Virus record (IMG/VR): IMGVR_UViG_3300046791_000308
Span: 1-22,861 of that record
From: a virus
DNA: 22,861 nt
Strand: one strand, 5' to 3'
Shown here: positions 3,347-9,721 of the stretch, one piece after another
Numbering within the stretch: position 1 is the first letter of the stretch
How the letters are laid out: the number at the start of each line of letters is the position of its first letter
Notes under the pieces: generated by a model
What the model saw: only the letters and a program-made list of their open reading frames with translations
What the model was told of the DNA's origin: nothing
Databases searched by the model: none
Program-made: the position numbers and the translations under genes

Positions 3347-3560
3347 CGCGGGAGTCTACCGGAAGTCTTGAGCGCAGGCGATCTAGTTCCGCGAAGTGCG
3401 ACTGGGGCACCAGCACCCACTTGCCAGACTCCAGCATCGAGAGCAGGCGGCTCAGCGTCTCCCGGGCCGCACGAATCTCGTCCAGCGTGGGCGGCCGGTC
3501 ACTGCTGACCCGATACCGCCCATGGCGACGTGGCGCTTTAGGTGCGGCGCTTTCGGGCAC
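3339..3560 (-). CDS. Small helical hypothetical protein, 73 aa (minus-strand cassette)
   Basis: The frame runs leftward from GTG at 3560, overlapping the end of the PEP-CTERM gene by 23 nt, to a stop overlapping the next gene. The N-terminal 25 residues are basic and Pro-rich. The rest (from PPTLDEIRAARETLSRLLSM) looks like a helical hairpin ending in LDRLRSRL. No signal peptide, Cys or enzyme motif is present, and there is no clear Shine-Dalgarno, so coupled translation or a start further inside is possible. Overlaps on both sides and common orientation place it in one transcript with its neighbours. Function is unknown. Confidence 0.55.
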   Translation of the reverse strand: MPESAAPKAPRRHGRYRVSSDRPPTLDEIRAARETLSRLLSMLESGKWVLVPQSHFAELDRLRSRLPVDSRDG

Positions 3561-4263
3561 GAACGGCGACCAGCAAGCCAGTCCCGAGGAGCATCATCGT
3601 GGCCGGTTCCGGTACGGGCGAGGCCAACTCGTTCTGGCCACGACTAATCAGGGAGCCTCCTGCCGCGAGGTCCAGGTCAAAGCCCATCGACATCGAGAAC
3701 ACCCCCCCCGCCGCGAAGAGCGATCCGCAATTCAGCGAGAAGCTATCCACGCCGGCTCCCGCGAGATCCGCCGAACTGCAGATCAGCAACCCCGGCAGAT
3801 CGTTGAACGCCTGGCCGCCCTGCCCGTTGGCGGCATCGGCCCAGAAGGTCATGCCGATGGTGGACCCCGGCGCACTGAACCAGGTGCCACTGCCGGACGC
3901 TTGCACAAAATCCACCGGCCCGACGAAGCCGGTGGCCCCGATGGCGACTTCCGCGCTCACCGTGCCGGCGGTGTTGTTCGTGATCGAGAGTGACGAGGAA
4001 TTGAGCGCATTGGTCGTCCCGAAAAGCGCCGTGTGCAACGAGCCTTCAATCGTCAGGCCGCCAATCACCGTGGTCGGCAGACTCACGATGCCGATAGCGG
4101 GATTGGTGTCGAGAATCTGTCCGGGTCCGCAGGCGACGTTGTTGTCGGACGCACAGAACGGGGTGCCGCCGACCAGGCCGGCCAAGAGGATGGCCGCTGA
4201 GGCGGGGGCCGACGAGAGGGCGACGAGCACGGCGACGAGGGGCAGGCAGCGGACGAGTTTCAT
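3538..4263 (-). CDS. PEP-CTERM sorting-signal protein, exported, 241 aa
   Basis: The start at ATG 4263 is chosen because AAGGAG lies 8 nt upstream on the minus strand and the translation then begins with a textbook signal peptide (MKLVRCLPLVAVLVALSSAP, probable cleavage after ASA, residues 21-23). A longer in-frame extension to 4362 lacks both properties. The C-terminus carries VPEPATMMLLGTGLLVAVRA (from residue 217) followed by RKRRT: the PEP box, one transmembrane helix and an Arg/Lys cluster that define PEP-CTERM proteins, which exosortases process in Gram-negative, often biofilm-forming bacteria. The middle is Gly/Ser/Thr-rich and beta-prone with several Cys; I recognise no enzyme domain. 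No exosortase is encoded here, so it would need a host enzyme. It is the first gene of a leftward cassette in a rightward virion region: probable host-modifying cargo. Confidence 0.85.
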   Translation of the reverse strand: MKLVRCLPLVAVLVALSSAPASAAILLAGLVGGTPFCASDNNVACGPGQILDTNPAIGIVSLPTTVIGGLTIEGSLHTALFGTTNALNSSSLSITNNTAGTVSAEVAIGATGFVGPVDFVQASGSGTWFSAPGSTIGMTFWADAANGQGGQAFNDLPGLLICSSADLAGAGVDSFSLNCGSLFAAGGVFSMSMGFDLDLAAGGSLISRGQNELASPVPEPATMMLLGTGLLVAVRARKRRT

Positions 4264-4382
4264 GGGCGAGGCTCCTTGGGGGTGTGACGGCGTGAGTGCC
4301 AAGGCTAGCGTCGGGCCGTGCTTCGGCGCGGGAGCATCAGATTCGGTGCCGGAGTGGATCACTATATTACTAGCGTCGATCT
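4264..4382. promoter_or_regulatory. Divergent intergenic region with AT-rich promoter candidate
   Basis: 119 bp separate the leftward PEP-CTERM gene from the rightward terminase gene. It is GC-rich apart from ACTATATTACTAG at 4361-4373, which offers TAATAT leftward (4369-4364) or TATATT rightward (4363-4368) as a -10 box. I do not find a good -35 element at standard spacing for either direction, so the promoter call is tentative. GACGCTAG occurs twice on the minus strand in this gap. Some promoter is expected here because two genes diverge. Confidence 0.35.
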
Positions 4383-5375
4383 GTGGGCATTCTGCAAGCC
4401 GCGCCCGTGCAGGCCATGGTGGACGCGAAAGCGATCTGCTGCTGGTGTGGCGAGACGCTGAAACGGGCGAAGCAACTGAACGTCTGGTCCCCGTGGTGGT
4501 GTTTCACGAAAGCCTGCTACGAACGCCAGTGCGCGTGGTCCGTCACCGCCGAGAAGAAGGGGCGGCCCACGGAGTGGCTCTTCTGTCCGGTGCCCAAACA
4601 GGTGGAGTTTTTCGAGGAAGCCTACCGGCTCGGCAAGCTGGCCCTGGCCGATCCCGAACGTGGCTCCGGGCGCGTGTTATTTGGCGGAGCAGCTGGCCCT
4701 GGGAAATCCCATGCGCTGAGATGGGGCTTGTACCGCGATGCGATGCGGATCCCGGATCTGAATTGCCTGCTGCTTCGGCGCACGTTCAAGGAACTGGACG
4801 CCACGCACCTCCGAGAGATGATGCGCGAAGTGCCGCGCCTGGGCGGCCGGTACCTGACGGCGGATAAGAGAGCCGTCTGGCCGAACGGCAGCGTCATTCA
4901 GGCCGGCCACTGCGAGACGGACACCGACGCCGGCAATCACCTCTCGACCGAATACGACCGTGAGGTGTTCGATGAACTGGTCACGTTTGCCATGGAACCG
5001 GCGCTCGAGATTATGTCTCGCGCCCGAACCGCGAAAGACGCGGTGAAAGCGGCCGGCGGGGCGCAAGTGTGGGCCGGCAGTAATCCTGGCGGCCGGGGCG
5101 CCTTGTGGGTGAAAGCGTTCTTCGTGGACAAGAGCGTCGATCCCGCGCAGTTTCCGAAGTATCAGCCGGAGCGGTATTCCTACGTCCATGCCAAACTGGA
5201 AGACAACCCCTACATGGATCCGGCATACCGCCAAACATTGGAAGAGATGCCGAGTCTAAGACGACGACAGCTTTTGGAAGGCGACTGGTCCGCGTTCGAA
5301 GGCCAGTTCTTCGATTGGTTGCCATCGAAGGATGGCTCACCGTGGCATATAGATGACGTTGGCGTGACGCCGTGA
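4383..5375 (+). CDS. terL: Terminase large subunit, ATPase half (split gene)
   Basis: A 330-aa DNA-packaging ATPase. An N-terminal Cys cluster (CCWCGETL, then WWCFTKACYERQC) resembles a zinc finger. The ATPase follows: PVPKQVEFF as the adenine-binding region, Walker A GGAAGPGKS at residues 101-109, Walker B VFDE with Asp197/Glu198, coupling motif SNP at 233-235, and the typical end LEDNPYMDPAYRQTL then LLEGDW and GQFFDW. A complete large terminase would now continue into an RNase H-like nuclease, but this frame stops after WHIDDVGVTP; the nuclease is a separate gene at 6184. The GTG at 4383 is the first start after an in-frame TAG at 4371. ATG 4416 would keep every motif and is a credible alternative. 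The partner should be the portal, the next large gene. Confidence 0.9.
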   Translation: MGILQAAPVQAMVDAKAICCWCGETLKRAKQLNVWSPWWCFTKACYERQCAWSVTAEKKGRPTEWLFCPVPKQVEFFEEAYRLGKLALADPERGSGRVLFGGAAGPGKSHALRWGLYRDAMRIPDLNCLLLRRTFKELDATHLREMMREVPRLGGRYLTADKRAVWPNGSVIQAGHCETDTDAGNHLSTEYDREVFDELVTFAMEPALEIMSRARTAKDAVKAAGGAQVWAGSNPGGRGALWVKAFFVDKSVDPAQFPKYQPERYSYVHAKLEDNPYMDPAYRQTLEEMPSLRRRQLLEGDWSAFEGQFFDWLPSKDGSPWHIDDVGVTP

Positions 5376-5587
5376 ATCACGATCTCGAGGCGATGCTGTT
5401 CAAGGCGTGGTACATCGCTCGGTGGTCGAGTTATGTGCCGTTTTTCCCTGACCGTCCGCAGTGGTTTGATCGAGATTGGTATGAGGCGCTGGGGACCGAA
5501 GCGCCGGATGGCGCCGTGCTGGTCGATATCTTTCCGCTCAAGGAAGCGCAGACGGCGGATTTGGAACGACTCTGGCAATTGCCATGA
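5372..5587 (+). CDS. Small hypothetical protein within the split terminase, 71 aa
   Basis: GTG at 5372 overlaps the ATPase stop by 4 nt (GTGA) and the frame ends at TGA 5585-5587, which overlaps the next ATG. It is aromatic-rich (AWYIARWSSYVPFFPDRPQW) and ends in an acidic, helical DLERLWQLP. There is no homing-endonuclease motif, Cys pair or signal peptide. Because it is coupled at both ends it should be made whenever the terminase halves are. It could bridge the two halves or be unrelated; the sequence does not decide. The family is not recognised. Confidence 0.6.
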   Translation: MNHDLEAMLFKAWYIARWSSYVPFFPDRPQWFDRDWYEALGTEAPDGAVLVDIFPLKEAQTADLERLWQLP

Positions 5588-5802
5588 GGCTGCTGCTCGT
5601 CGGCTACCTTGCCGCGCTCAGTGTCGGGTGTGCCGCGCATGTGTGGCTCTCTCGGCCGTTGGTGATCGAGGAATACGTTACCGCCCAGGTGCGCATCTAT
5701 CGCGCTGACCGCGACTGTCGCATCGAAGTGGTGACGCCGCTGGAGACGATCATCACGCTGCCGACACGCTGTCTGGCAGTGCCGCATCGGAGGACGCCGT
5801 AA
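5584..5802 (+). CDS. Small membrane or exported protein, 72 aa
   Basis: ATG 5584 overlaps the preceding TGA (ATGA), and the stop TAA overlaps the next ATG by one base. The N-terminus MRLLLVGYLAALSVGCAAHV is a short signal/anchor segment; the Cys at 16 after SVG is a weak lipobox. The remainder (VIEEYVTAQVRIYRADRDCR, then RIEVVTPLETIITLP) looks like a small beta-rich periplasmic domain. Its size and lipoprotein-like start are compatible with an outer-membrane spanin subunit, but no partner or lysis gene is next to it, so I do not call it one. An envelope protein inside a packaging-gene block is odd. Confidence 0.55.
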   Translation: MRLLLVGYLAALSVGCAAHVWLSRPLVIEEYVTAQVRIYRADRDCRIEVVTPLETIITLPTRCLAVPHRRTP

Positions 5803-6200
5803 TGGATGACGACATGGCCGCTCGACTCGCCCGGATGTTTCCTGGCGACTTGGTGCCCAGCGACGAACTGCCAGACCCGCATGTGCCGATGCGCGTCCGA
5901 CGCCAACTGATGCGCGGCGTACGGTACGAACCGCCGCCATCGCCCGTCACCGCTGAGAAATTCCGGCGTGTGATGGAAAGTTTGCCGGAACCACCGTCCG
6001 CACCGTCCGCGCCACAGGTGTGTTCCGTGCCGACGAAAGCGTATTTGCTGGAAAATTCCGCGCATGTCACCCGATGGTTGGAGGAGGCGAAGGATCTCGA
6101 GAGTGACGTCAAGCTCGGGCAACCGGCCGAACCGCATCAGGTCACGCGCCTGCTGCTGGAAGTCATCCCCGTGGTGGAGCAGCATGTATCGCGCCCGTGA
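5802..6200 (+). CDS. Hypothetical protein preceding the terminase nuclease, 132 aa
   Basis: ATG 5802 shares one base with the previous TAA. The protein has an acidic start (MDDDMAARLARMFPGDL), a proline-rich middle (LPEPPSAPSAPQ) and a helical C-terminal third (residues about 80-130) with AHVTRWLEEAKDLESDVKLG and VTRLLLEVIPVVEQHV. It overlaps the nuclease gene start by 17 nt, so the two are probably coupled. Its size and helical end could suit a small terminase subunit or a linker protein, but no helix-turn-helix is evident, so this is speculation. Confidence 0.55.
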   Translation: MDDDMAARLARMFPGDLVPSDELPDPHVPMRVRRQLMRGVRYEPPPSPVTAEKFRRVMESLPEPPSAPSAPQVCSVPTKAYLLENSAHVTRWLEEAKDLESDVKLGQPAEPHQVTRLLLEVIPVVEQHVSRP

Positions 6201-7668
6201 TCTGAAAGTCGCGTTAGGGTGCGACTGGGGCAACGCCTCGCCTGGCTGTGTGCTCTGGGGCTGTGCGCTGCCAGACGGGCACGTCCATATTTTCGATGAA
6301 TATAAATTCCAGCGCATGACGGCGAAGGATGTCGCGTGGGAAGTGAAACAGAAATGTTCCACATGGAACCTTGAGACGGTGCCGTACGCCTGTTGCGATC
6401 CCTCGCTGCTTCCTGCGAAAAAAGGGGTGGCCGGCGAGTGGATTGGCTTGACGCTGCAGCGACACGGGTTGCCGGTCAGGCGCGTCAGTAATGATCGCGT
6501 CAACGGCTGGCAGCGCGTCCATGAGGCGCTCGGCGTCAACCCGCAAACCGGCCGCCCGTGGATGACCATCCATCCGCGCTGCAAGTACCTGACGCGCACC
6601 TTGCCGCTGATGGTGCAGGCCAAGCTCAACCCCGAAGACCTCGAGAGCGACAGCGACGACCACGCCTGTTTCGTCGCTGGCACGATGGTGCTGACGGCGC
6701 GAGGCGAGGTGCCGATTGAATCGGTGACGTTGCAGGACGAAGTGTGGACACCTGATGGCTATCGACATGTACTCGCGGTCGCGATGACGGAGGCAAGTGC
6801 GTCAACGATGACACTCTTCCTCAGTAATGGGCGCGTGTTGCACGGCACGGGGAACCATCCGATTTTCATCAAGGGCGAGAAAATCCGTCTGGATGCGCTG
6901 AGGTATGGCGATATCATAGATGGATGGGCGATCTCTCCTGGTGCCATCGAGACGCACGGGCTAAATGGCGACGACTGGTCGGGCCGATTCCTCGCGGCTA
7001 CGAGATTCATCACAAGGACGGTAACCCGCGCCATAACGCACTCTCAAATCTGGAATGCGTGTCGAAACGGGATCATGCGGCCCGTCACCGTTGGGGCCAG
7101 GGACGTGAAGATCACTTGGCCGCCATCCGTCCATTGGCCGCTGAGTGGCATCGCAGTCCTGCAGGACGGGCGTGGCATCGCGCTCACGCTGTGGCCGTCT
7201 GGAAGAACTGGACGCCCATCCAGAAGCAGTGCGATGTCTGCGGCGTTCTCTACGAGGACATCACCCGTCGAGCGTCCAGCCGGTTCTGTTCCAATAACTG
7301 CAAGTCTCAGTGGAGACGCCAGAGCGGCGTGGATCTCATCGACCGCCTCTGCGCTGTGTGTGGCGGCACCTTCCGCGTCAGCAAGTACGATCACACCCGC
7401 CGCGCCTGTTCGCGTCCCTGTGCTGGTCGTCTCATCTCCGCAACCAAACGAGCGAAGACAGCCGGTCTATAACCTCACCGTGGACGGTGGGCAGTACGTC
7501 GCCAACGGTATTCTCGTCAGCAACTGTGATGCCCTCAGGTATCTCCTGATGGGCGGTCTGCGACCAGGCGTGGCCCAGCGTGACGTGCCAGAAGTGGTGC
7601 CACTGAGTAGCCGGTGGTGGCGCAAGTATTATGGCGATGACGTTTCCACCGGGATCCTCCGCACCTGA
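6184..7668 (+). CDS. terL: Terminase large subunit, nuclease half, with intein
   Basis: A 494-aa precursor starting at ATG 6184, with GTGGAG shortly upstream. Residues 1-161 and 448-494 form the headful-type RNase H-like nuclease: motif I in VALGCDWGN (Asp14), motif II in ACCDPS (Asp72), then motif III DDHA, interrupted by an intein and resumed as CDALRYLL. After splicing the product would be 208 aa with an intact DDHACDALRY site, ending GDDVSTGILRT. The frame remains open upstream to 6064, but that part overlaps the previous gene and lacks nuclease motifs. It would act in trans with the ATPase encoded at 4383 to cut concatemeric DNA during packaging. The last 38 nt overlap the portal gene. 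Splicing is inferred from motifs and is required for a complete catalytic site. Confidence 0.88.
   Translation: MYRARDLKVALGCDWGNASPGCVLWGCALPDGHVHIFDEYKFQRMTAKDVAWEVKQKCSTWNLETVPYACCDPSLLPAKKGVAGEWIGLTLQRHGLPVRRVSNDRVNGWQRVHEALGVNPQTGRPWMTIHPRCKYLTRTLPLMVQAKLNPEDLESDSDDHACFVAGTMVLTARGEVPIESVTLQDEVWTPDGYRHVLAVAMTEASASTMTLFLSNGRVLHGTGNHPIFIKGEKIRLDALRYGDIIDGWAISPGAIETHGLNGDDWSGRFLAATRFITRTVTRAITHSQIWNACRNGIMRPVTVGARDVKITWPPSVHWPLSGIAVLQDGRGIALTLWPSGRTGRPSRSSAMSAAFSTRTSPVERPAGSVPITASLSGDARAAWISSTASALCVAAPSASASTITPAAPVRVPVLVVSSPQPNERRQPVYNLTVDGGQYVANGILVSNCDALRYLLMGGLRPGVAQRDVPEVVPLSSRWWRKYYGDDVSTGILRT
6667..7524 (+). mobile_element. Intein in nuclease motif III of the terminase
   Basis: 286 codons from Cys1 (TGT 6667) to the terminal Asn (AAC 7522-7524), followed by Cys+1 (TGT 7525). 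Block A is CFVAGTMVLTARGEVPIESV; block B is GTGNHPIF with the conserved T-x-x-H. The C-terminal splicing region is VYNLTVDGGQYVANGILVSN (7465-7524). Both splicing parts are in the same reading frame, and the frame between them stays open. The central ~165 codons, however, read as Ser/Ala/Arg-rich sequence without domain character, while the HNH gene occupies another frame there. The residue before the terminal Asn is Ser rather than the usual His. The insertion lies between DDHA and CDALRY, a highly conserved catalytic site, as is typical for inteins. Confidence 0.9.
6924..7472 (+). CDS. HNH homing endonuclease nested out of frame in the intein
   Basis: A 182-aa ORF in the frame one base back from the intein frame. 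It contains a clear HNH core (GPIPRGYEIHHKDGNPRHNA then LSNLECVSKRDHAARH, residues 20-55, His29/His30, Asn34 and downstream Asn/His). Two tandem four-Cys zinc modules follow: Cys103, 106, 122, 126 and Cys143, 146, 162, 166, the second Cys pair of each spaced C-x3-C. This is typical of mobile phage HNH enzymes that cut intein-less alleles. Its TAA (7470-7472) lies inside the DNA for intein block F (GTC TAT AAC). ATG 6924 is the first start in the open frame, but the nearest purine stretch (GAGG at 6900-6903) is too far away for a normal Shine-Dalgarno. How it is expressed (internal initiation, or -1 frameshift from the intein N-half) is unresolved. Confidence 0.88.
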   Translation: MGDLSWCHRDARAKWRRLVGPIPRGYEIHHKDGNPRHNALSNLECVSKRDHAARHRWGQGREDHLAAIRPLAAEWHRSPAGRAWHRAHAVAVWKNWTPIQKQCDVCGVLYEDITRRASSRFCSNNCKSQWRRQSGVDLIDRLCAVCGGTFRVSKYDHTRRACSRPCAGRLISATKRAKTAGL

Positions 7669-9721
7669 CCCTGTCGGCGCCGATCCCTCCGGCGTTCCAC
7701 CCGAACTGCAACACGCCGTGGCCCCAGAAGAGCCGTTAGCGCGGCCGGATATTCTGCCGCTGTCCGAAGAAGACTTGACGTTCTGGAGAGCGGAGATTGA
7801 CCGCTCGGTGAAACTCCGCGACGGCGTCATCTCCGCCTGGGGCGTGACCGACAACCTCGAGCGGTACACGCCAAAGTCCGTGATGAGCGGCTCGAAGATG
7901 AGCGGCCAGGTCAACGTCGGCAAAGACTTCAGCGACGTCGAGCGCAAGAAAGCCGCGCTCTTCTACGACACGCCCGATATTGCGATGGTCCCGGATCCCG
8001 GCACGGATGGCTCCGTGCTGCAACTGCATCAGGAAGTCCTCAATAGCTTACTTGGCCCCAAGCGCATGGACGCCAAGGCCACGGTCTTGCCGACGATTCT
8101 CGATTGCCTCGTCGCCATTCAACCGTGCCCGACCGAGATTGGCTACAACGCCGTCACGGTGGACATGCCGGAGACGCAACCGGGACCCCCGACGCCCGAT
8201 CCGCAAACCGGCCAGCCCGTGCCAGGGGCGCCGATACCAACCGGCAAGATGGTGCCCGTGCCGGTGTGGGAGGAATTCTTCTGGCGCCGGATCTCGCCCA
8301 AAGCGATTCTGCTCCCGGTCACGCTCAAGGACACCCGCTACGACGAAGCCGTGTGGATCGGCTTCCAGTGGCGCAAGCCGCTCTCCACCGTGAAGCAGCA
8401 GTATCAGCTGCCCGAAGAGTGGACGGGTGGCAACGATAGCGTCCTCGACAAACCGCACTTTGAACCGCTGGTGGATCCCGGTGACGAAGGCGAACCGATG
8501 GTGGCCGGCGTCAAGCTCTGGTATCGCGCCTCCCTCCGCGATCCCAACATCACGCATCCGCAAGTGATTCGCGTGTTGGAGCTGATTGACGGCCTCCCCG
8601 ATCCGGTGGTGCATCAAAACGTGCCCTACCAGGAAGTCGGGAAGGATGGACGCCTGACGCCCAACTCGATGATCGGGTTGCCGTGTCATCCCTTGGCGCT
8701 CCGCGACCTGACCGATTCACCCTTTGTCGCGAGTGACTGCACCCTGACCGGGGCGTTGACGCGGGAGTTGAATACCTTCCGCACCCAGATCATCGAACGG
8801 CGCGATGCGTCCAAGCTGCATCTGCTGTTCGACAGTTCGAAGGTCAACCAGGAAGTGCGCGACAAGATCGAGAACGGCAGTGCGCCGAAGATGATTCCGG
8901 TGGAAGCCGGTGCCCTCGAGGGTGGCGCCGACGCGATCATGCAGCAAGTCCCCGGCATCGTGCTCGGCCGCGAGAACTACATGGGCCAGGACGTCATCGA
9001 GCGCGACCGCGATGGCATCTTGGGCATGAACCAGAATTCCACCAACCCTCGCGGCGAAGGCGGCAAGACCGCCACGGAAGTGAAGACCGTCCAGCGCAAC
9101 ACCGATGCGCGGTTTGAGCAGGAGCGCCAGCGCGTCCTGCAGTGGTGGTTGACCGGCGTCCAGAAGGTGAGCGCCCTGGTGCTCCGCTACGGGGACCGCA
9201 TCGCCGTCGAGATTCTCGGTCCCCAGCGCGGCCAGGCGTGGGTGCAGGCGAGAGATAAAGGCCAGTTCACGCGCTTCGCGTTTGAAATCGTGATCGACTC
9301 CGGCACCTTCGTGGACATCGAAGAGCGCAAGCGTCAGGACATCCAGTTGTACAACCTGACGGCGAAGGATCCGACGCTCAACCGTTCGACCTTGCAGGCG
9401 CGAATCGCCACGGACTTCGGCATTGACCCCGCGCAGTGGATCGTCACCAAACCGCCAGAGCATCATCCCGATCCGCCGACGATTTCTATTAGCGTCAAGC
9501 CGGAGGATCTCGATCCGGCGTTGCCCAGTTACGTCGGCACCTTCGCGATTCTCAGTGCCGGCGGGGTGAAGGGACTTCCGCCGCCTCAGCCAGTGGCCGT
9601 GGCCCCGCCCCCGCCGACACCGGGATTGTTGCCGCATCAAGGCACCCCGTCGCCCGTGCCGCGACTCGACCAGCATCAACTCGATCAGACCGGCCAGCCG
9701 CCGGGACAAAGGCCGATGTGA
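7631..9721 (+). CDS. Portal protein
   Basis: A 696-aa protein directly after the terminase, the usual place and size for a podovirus-type portal. The N-terminal 45 residues are Pro/Ala-rich. The next block (EEDLTFWRAEIDRSVKLRDG, then NVGKDFSDVERKKAALFYDT) matches the helical clip/wing start of such portals. The middle has the interior sequence LTRELNTFRTQIIERRDASK, and the C-terminal half has GKTATEVKTVQRNTDARFEQ followed by LQWWLTGVQKVSALVLRY, as in long portal helices. The last ~50 residues are a Pro-rich tail. It overlaps the terminase nuclease gene by 38 nt. ATG 7631 lacks a clear ribosome binding site; ATG 7637, two codons later, is possible. It would form the dodecameric ring through which DNA is packaged and ejected. 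Confidence 0.85.
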   Translation: MAMTFPPGSSAPDPVGADPSGVPPELQHAVAPEEPLARPDILPLSEEDLTFWRAEIDRSVKLRDGVISAWGVTDNLERYTPKSVMSGSKMSGQVNVGKDFSDVERKKAALFYDTPDIAMVPDPGTDGSVLQLHQEVLNSLLGPKRMDAKATVLPTILDCLVAIQPCPTEIGYNAVTVDMPETQPGPPTPDPQTGQPVPGAPIPTGKMVPVPVWEEFFWRRISPKAILLPVTLKDTRYDEAVWIGFQWRKPLSTVKQQYQLPEEWTGGNDSVLDKPHFEPLVDPGDEGEPMVAGVKLWYRASLRDPNITHPQVIRVLELIDGLPDPVVHQNVPYQEVGKDGRLTPNSMIGLPCHPLALRDLTDSPFVASDCTLTGALTRELNTFRTQIIERRDASKLHLLFDSSKVNQEVRDKIENGSAPKMIPVEAGALEGGADAIMQQVPGIVLGRENYMGQDVIERDRDGILGMNQNSTNPRGEGGKTATEVKTVQRNTDARFEQERQRVLQWWLTGVQKVSALVLRYGDRIAVEILGPQRGQAWVQARDKGQFTRFAFEIVIDSGTFVDIEERKRQDIQLYNLTAKDPTLNRSTLQARIATDFGIDPAQWIVTKPPEHHPDPPTISISVKPEDLDPALPSYVGTFAILSAGGVKGLPPPQPVAVAPPPPTPGLLPHQGTPSPVPRLDQHQLDQTGQPPGQRPM

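Follow-up and report, generated by a model that had tools for sequence, protein, structure and literature searches.

Inteins are normally taken to carry a homing endonuclease in frame, and fractured genes, whose halves bear split inteins (gp41-1, NrdJ-1), were reportedly described by Dassa et al. in 2009. In mycobacteriophages, inteins of the large terminase subunit (TerL) lie at functional motifs, and terminase inteins have been reported to splice with endonuclease activity; all the TerL inteins of that study mapped to the ATPase domain (PMC5050341). The closest published precedent for the arrangement described below is an insertion in the methylase gene of phage ShiLan, where an HNH endonuclease is encoded out of frame within a host frame that stays open, without a splicing domain (PMC11855218). 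The same paper cites, for overlapping frames, a preprint on actinobacteriophage inteins of 'non-canonical architecture' (bioRxiv 10.1101/2025.01.02.630785) which, judged by its title and that citation, may describe related intein/HNH overlaps or part of the present finding. Here we analyze a 22,861-nucleotide (nt; 22.9-kb) stretch of viral DNA, positions 1 to 22,861 of IMG/VR virus record IMGVR_UViG_3300046791_000308 and hereafter called the window, in which the large terminase is encoded as separate ATPase and nuclease genes and the nuclease gene holds a predicted intein overlapped by an HNH endonuclease gene in another reading frame.

We read this locus as a split, two-chain terminase whose nuclease is made as a precursor with a spliced intein and, inside it, an internally started homing HNH endonuclease; for the reading as a whole we estimate a probability of about 0.78. 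It draws, through sequence comparison and structure prediction, on how the locus is built, on a frame relation kept across the family, on other terminases split at the same boundary, on empty insertion sites and on one natural in-frame deletion of the HNH. The parts of the locus are the following (ORF, open reading frame; pLDDT, predicted local distance difference test; HMM, hidden Markov model).

4383..5375, + strand: terminase large subunit, ATPase chain; GTG start at 4383 or ATG start at 4416; phrog_979, E 5.6e-29; Walker A, Walker B and C motifs; linker end common to ten other loci
6184..6666, + strand: terminase nuclease chain, N-extein, with motifs I, II and the first part of III; 70% identity to the nuclease part of the fused TerL in L002/L003
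6667..7524, + strand: predicted intein of 286 residues, from C1 to the terminal Asn; residues 162-447 of the second ORF
6667..6924, + strand: Hint-N part of the intein; pLDDT >90; HMM match
6924..7472, + strand: HNH endonuclease ORF nested in the intein, in its -1 frame; HNH_3 7e-13; phrog_15471 7e-29; pLDDT 94; profile hit to I-HmuI 0.0054
7465..7524, + strand: Hint-C part of the intein (VYNLTV...GILVSN); TIGR01443; pLDDT ~90
7525..7668, + strand: terminase nuclease chain, C-extein (CDALRY..., remainder of motif III, stop)

The ATPase ORF, of 330 residues, matches the PHROG terminase large subunit, contains the motifs GGAAGPGKS, VFDEL and NPGG, and ends in GQFFDWLPSKDGSPWHIDDVGVTP*. The initial annotation had proposed a separate nuclease gene with its own ATG 808 nt further on, and the coordinates bear this out: the second ORF (6184-7668) starts with an ATG at 6184, preceded by GGTGGAGCAGC, and its product begins MYRARDLKVALGCDWGNASPG. 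This ORF has nuclease motifs I (DWG) and II (CDPS), and the window consequently possesses both the Walker A/B ATPase and the RNase H nuclease motifs of a terminase, but on two chains. In the unsplit relatives L002 and L003 a single chain runs through the same linker, which reads APWHVADVGVTASTLSNLRVGLALDWG; their identity to the window is 51-52% for the ATPase and 70% for the nuclease. Since the two TerL ORFs of the window are in different frames, a lone stop codon would not account for the split. The positions given to the second ORF were right, but it is not a plain nuclease gene, residues 162-447 being the predicted intein. The statement that the two halves are complete in motifs is therefore not supported for the genes as encoded; nuclease motif III is interrupted by the intein and would be complete only after splicing.

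Within these residues we found the intein blocks CFVAGTMV, TxxH (in GTGNHP), VYNLTV and GILVSN followed by Cys, which include the residues of a class 1 type intein (C162, GTGNH, and VSN then Cys). Matches of the splicing ends in Pfam and NCBIfam were weak to moderate. In an alignment-based model of the intein frame, Hint-N and Hint-C were predicted at pLDDT ~90 or more, the stretch overlapping the HNH being disordered at ~45. The best fold matches of this model in the PDB were solved inteins (E 8e-6, TM-score (TMt) up to 0.81), and gp41-1 was closest in the PDB in a profile search (3.7e-18). The frame is unbroken from 6667 to 7524, and the two-ORF layout of a fractured gene is thus not found in the window. 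The insertion falls inside nuclease motif III (DDHA^C-DALRY), in the active site, so that the nuclease should work only after splicing, with a predicted mature length of 208 residues. Judged by sequence and model, 6667-7524 is probably a class 1 type intein, and one likely to splice.

The HNH ORF, of 182 codons, lies entirely inside the intein, one base back, and its TAA stop is embedded in the codons for Tyr-Asn in intein block F. The stretch with predicted disorder in the intein frame gives a mean pLDDT of 94 in the HNH frame, and the product has both an HNH motif (HNH_3) and DNA-binding modules of the I-HmuI type.

Relatives were collected with an HNH profile from viral contigs and genomes, to which phage records were added; many of the loci are short metagenomic contigs. 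At 98 loci (93 after removal of near-copies) the HNH lay wholly inside an open frame carrying both Hint blocks, and the intein frame was HNH+1 in 98 of 98; the canonical bifunctional layout, with the HNH in frame with the intein, occurred at none of them. A frameshift error as the cause of the offset is ruled out, the same offset being present in 93 distinct loci. Because openness was part of the definition of a nested locus, the Hint blocks were also located in three frames with stops masked. Both blocks fell in the +1 frame in 97 of the 101 loci that had both (the exceptions were L053, L061, L079 and L132), and this frame was open in 97/97, while the third frame of the same stretch had 14.7 stops on average. 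Synonymous codon shuffling gave a median probability of 0.064 per locus for an open second frame, a figure that is not compounded into a joint probability, the loci being related by descent.

The exteins scanned were terminases (phrog_2 in 72 of 89, other terminase families besides), and nearly all insertions were at motif III or a few codons away. In L019, L052 and L162 the site is displaced, inside the same motif of the terminase, by some four codons, which suggests, from the sequences, that the insertion site of the element slides. The same layout is present in TJE1, Highwayman and LS06-2018-MD07, annotated only as terminase, and in the haloarchaeal (Halobacterium) plasmid pGSL19_54.9, annotated only as 'Hint domain-containing protein'. 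Several loci depart from the layout. At L096 (3301-4137) and L125 (3361-4197) the open second frame around the nested HNH runs into a terminase C-terminus (GDCxRYxL), but Hint blocks were not found and a stop precedes it; these insertions are possibly ShiLan-like or degenerate. Group I introns, considered for these two loci and for the surroundings of free-standing HNH genes, gave no Rfam match. A single in-frame stop lies upstream of the intein-bearing part of TerL in L088 (near 1527) and L116 (near 1663), for which recoding, decay or an error in sequencing may account; L116 is classed with the Methanomethylophilaceae, where TAG is known to be read as an amino acid. In L043 (81-2727), a gap of ~260 nt with a change of frame interrupts TerL inside its ATPase domain, and an intein with a nested HNH lies further downstream.

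An ATG stands 50-70 codons before the catalytic His pair in 69 loci, and in 42 of these it has a Shine-Dalgarno (SD)-like match of at least 4 bases; among neighbouring ATGs in other frames the figure is 61 of 323 (Fisher p 1.4e-11). From these sequence features, internal initiation appears the likeliest route of HNH synthesis. The HNH could instead be made by -1 frameshifting, as part of a terminase-HintN-HNH fusion unable to splice, and it is true that the HNH is in the -1 frame of the intein in all nested loci and that its frame is open up to ~90 nt upstream of the window ATG. However, SD-like matches at ATGs of fixed place are far above background, and we regard frameshifting as unlikely, although it is the alternative that survives best.

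The ShiLan precedent, an out-of-frame HNH in an open host frame without splicing (PMC11855218), raises another alternative, that the host-frame product is tolerated unspliced and that the Hint blocks are inactive remnants. Yet C1, TxxH, the terminal Asn and the +1 Cys/Ser are kept across very divergent nested loci, the Hint ends are predicted at high pLDDT, and the protein that the insertion interrupts, in nuclease motif III, is an essential one. Furthermore, the Hint parts are kept in locus L161, which has lost most of its HNH. Retention of inert remnants under these circumstances seems to us very unlikely.

The alleles observed are consistent with a mobile element that comprises both the intein and the HNH. 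Empty terminase sites occur in L163 and similar loci, with ~79% identity over the terminase to L026, the filled allele among these close relatives, and also in L002/L003. In L161, 133 codons have been lost in frame, with most of the HNH, and both the Hint blocks and the frame remain. These empty, filled and HNH-deleted alleles are the states expected of a homing element. The same HNH family is found as a separate gene between two split-intein halves of TerL in L061 (1859-4204) and L079 (53-2323), apparently natural split inteins in the order TerL-N with IntN, free HNH gene, IntC with TerL-C. In L025 (Brochothrix phage BL3, HM144386; 727-2607), TerL ends at an in-frame stop inside the intein, and gp3 (2311-2607) carries the intein C-part together with the C-terminal end of the terminase; a remnant of the HNH is present in the -1 frame. 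The sequence suggests a split intein that arose from the nested form. Free-standing HNH homologs adjoin terL.

The losses of the HNH in L161 and in phage BL3 might be taken as signs of a dead passenger in the nested HNH, with a conserved overlap that only reflects recent spread of one element. Against this, the catalytic His/Asn and the zinc-ligand Cys are invariant in HNH proteins whose identity falls to 30-40%. Substitutions in the overlap are concentrated at HNH codon position 3 (intein position 2), and those in Hint-N at intein position 3, a pattern which implies that selection keeps the HNH sequence, the intein frame there mainly needing to stay open. With third-position changes predominating in this way, a dead passenger, too, seems very unlikely.

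The split of the terminase is not confined to the window. A search for close relatives with the window ATPase sequence alone gave no matches, and a profile of six related ATPase domains retrieved 52 loci from viral contigs. The ATPase stops at the same linker, with a nuclease ORF downstream, in ten IMG/VR loci (L173, L174, L175, L176, L178, L179, L182, L184, L198 and L199; about six distinct sequences), where the ATPase C-terminus is PWHVADxGxxA* or PWHVRELAx*; neither the window nor these ten relatives has the ATPase and nuclease on a single polypeptide. Start and stop overlap by 4 nt (ATGA or GTGA) in L174/L175, L182 and L184, and the spacing is 40 nt in L176, ~45 nt in L198/L199 and ~400 nt in L178/L179. 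In these last two an endonuclease VII family gene (Pfam 2.6e-21) lies exactly between the split ATPase and nuclease genes, at 4843-5325 in L178 and 1245-1727 in L179. Split and fused sets alike have the catalytic ATPase and nuclease motifs, in a text-pattern check that left blanks where the pattern was too narrow. On the maximum-likelihood ATPase tree the split or fused state changes four times; strong branch support makes at least three of these changes unavoidable, and monophyly of the split terminases is rejected (approximately unbiased test, p-AU 0.001). A spacing of 808 nt was found in the window contig only, among the split loci compared. Three ORFs (71, 72 and 132 codons), coding-like in base composition per codon position, tile this gap, their starts overlapping or abutting the preceding stops, and a portal-like gene follows the nuclease.

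5372..5587, + strand: small ORF, 71 residues; start overlaps the ATPase stop
5584..5802, + strand: small ORF, 72 residues, with a hydrophobic N-terminus
5802..6200, + strand: small ORF, 132 residues; GGAGGA upstream
7631..9721, + strand: portal-like gene; neighbour kept in relatives, 55-64% identity

On the other side of terL, at 3538-4362 on the - strand and just upstream, lies a gene for a PEP-CTERM-motif protein (Pfam E 8e-7), a host-type exported-protein gene that is unusual in a phage contig. A protein of 711 residues (319-2454) has three Laminin_G_3 (ConA-like lectin) stretches (E 1e-63) and, by its sequence, is probably a virion or receptor-binding protein.

The initial annotation had favoured functional fission over decay, and this preference is strengthened: terminases ending at the same boundary with an intact nuclease ORF downstream were sought and found in the ten loci, and because the breakpoint recurs with motifs kept, some starts are coupled and the state changes several times, functional fission is the better supported explanation of these sequences. 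A decaying terminase or an assembly chimera, in either case without a functional two-chain motor, would fit gap ORFs that have no homologs and a virus with no complete genome at hand. The ten other contigs, with their common breakpoint, catalytic motifs, coupled starts and preserved order with the portal gene, make it highly improbable; for a chimera in particular, other contigs break at the same residue. Least probable of all is an intron, ~820 nt long and lying between 5375 and 6184, whose removal from the RNA would join the TerL halves: the frames of the halves differ, the gap is long and introns are known in phage terminase genes (ICP1, PMC10448857), but none would fit into the 4-nt overlaps or 40-nt gaps of split relatives, the ORFs in the gap appear to be coding, and no Rfam intron core was found in window 4200-8000 or in 19 further loci. 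Neither an assembly chimera nor an intron restoring one frame, the two findings that would have spoken against fission, was thus encountered, gene order around the terminase, portal included, being the same in relatives; RNA splicing itself was not assayed.

If the locus is, as we propose, a two-chain terminase with an intein and an internally started HNH, the ATPase and the RNase H nuclease would be translated separately, with the break at the flexible interdomain linker, and we infer that the chains would assemble non-covalently into the packaging motor. The nuclease would be made as a precursor holding a class-1-type intein in active-site motif III; Hint-N and Hint-C would fold together, excise themselves and join DDHA to CDALRY. 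Between these two parts, ~180 codons would be a disordered loop in the intein frame and the HNH one base back. Translated from its internal start, the HNH would cut terminase genes that lack the element, and the cut would lead to copying-in of the whole dual-coding unit, i.e. homing.

Splicing, production of the HNH, cutting of its target and assembly of the two chains are predictions, and several observations weigh against this interpretation. A Foldseek search of the PDB with the HNH model gave no significant match. The window HNH has its ATG 28 codons before the catalytic His pair, without a clear SD, and misses an N-terminal part seen in most relatives; this short form is shared with L026, which has a clear SD. 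For the window alone the probability of an open second frame by synonymous codon shuffling is 0.05, which is not very improbable, and the case for dual coding consequently rests on the family. The nested fraction (98/135) is biased upward, the HNH and Hint profiles having been built from nested members. Free-standing HNHs are scattered among nested ones on an unrooted tree (16 changes), so that either form may have come first. Finally, homologs of the 71- and 132-residue gap ORFs were absent from phage records, and those of the 132-residue ORF also from viral contigs and from four related records.

A broader claim, to which we give somewhat less than even odds, is that these loci represent a widespread undescribed class of mobile element, in which a self-splicing intein and its homing endonuclease are overprinted, the latter in the -1 frame, at the terminase nuclease active site in viruses of many bacterial phyla and some archaea, together with a packaging motor that was split several times in the clade of the window. 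Annotation that gives one terminase or one 'Hint domain' protein, as in the named phages and the Halobacterium plasmid, overlooks the endonuclease. The overlap would tie two selfish functions together, with neither frame freely breakable, and the family offers a large natural data set on the evolution of overprinted genes. By implication of the recurrent split, the packaging motor may not need a covalent linker between ATPase and nuclease, and the part that tethering plays when the motor switches between packaging and cutting would become open to direct test.

In actinophage annotation, the ATPase and nuclease genes of terminases are labelled separately. The terms we tried yielded no paper on split terminases. 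Single-chain TerL proteins (Terminase_6 and Terminase_3 families) share with the window the ATPase and RNase H motifs, their order and the adjoining portal gene, and differ in being one polypeptide instead of two. Fractured genes have an endonuclease gene between the intein halves, a likeness best seen in L061/L079, where the protein is TerL and the HNH is of the same family; in the window, by contrast, the intein halves belong to a single unbroken chain, which the HNH overlaps without separating them. The inteins described here also differ from the mycobacteriophage TerL inteins (PMC5050341), in that they lie in the nuclease domain and the endonuclease is out of frame. The preprint (bioRxiv 10.1101/2025.01.02.630785), as far as its title and citation indicate, concerns actinophages, whereas the present loci come from many phage and host groups. 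The likeness to ShiLan is closest: a complete HNH gene with zinc-finger modules, out of frame in an insertion that leaves the host frame open, with its stop codon at the insert end and an insert that is disordered when read in the host frame. The ShiLan insertion differs in having no splicing domain, a non-essential methylase as host and no detectable ribosome binding site; the nested loci, unlike it, have a Hint intein around the HNH, terminase motif III as host and an enrichment of SD-like starts.

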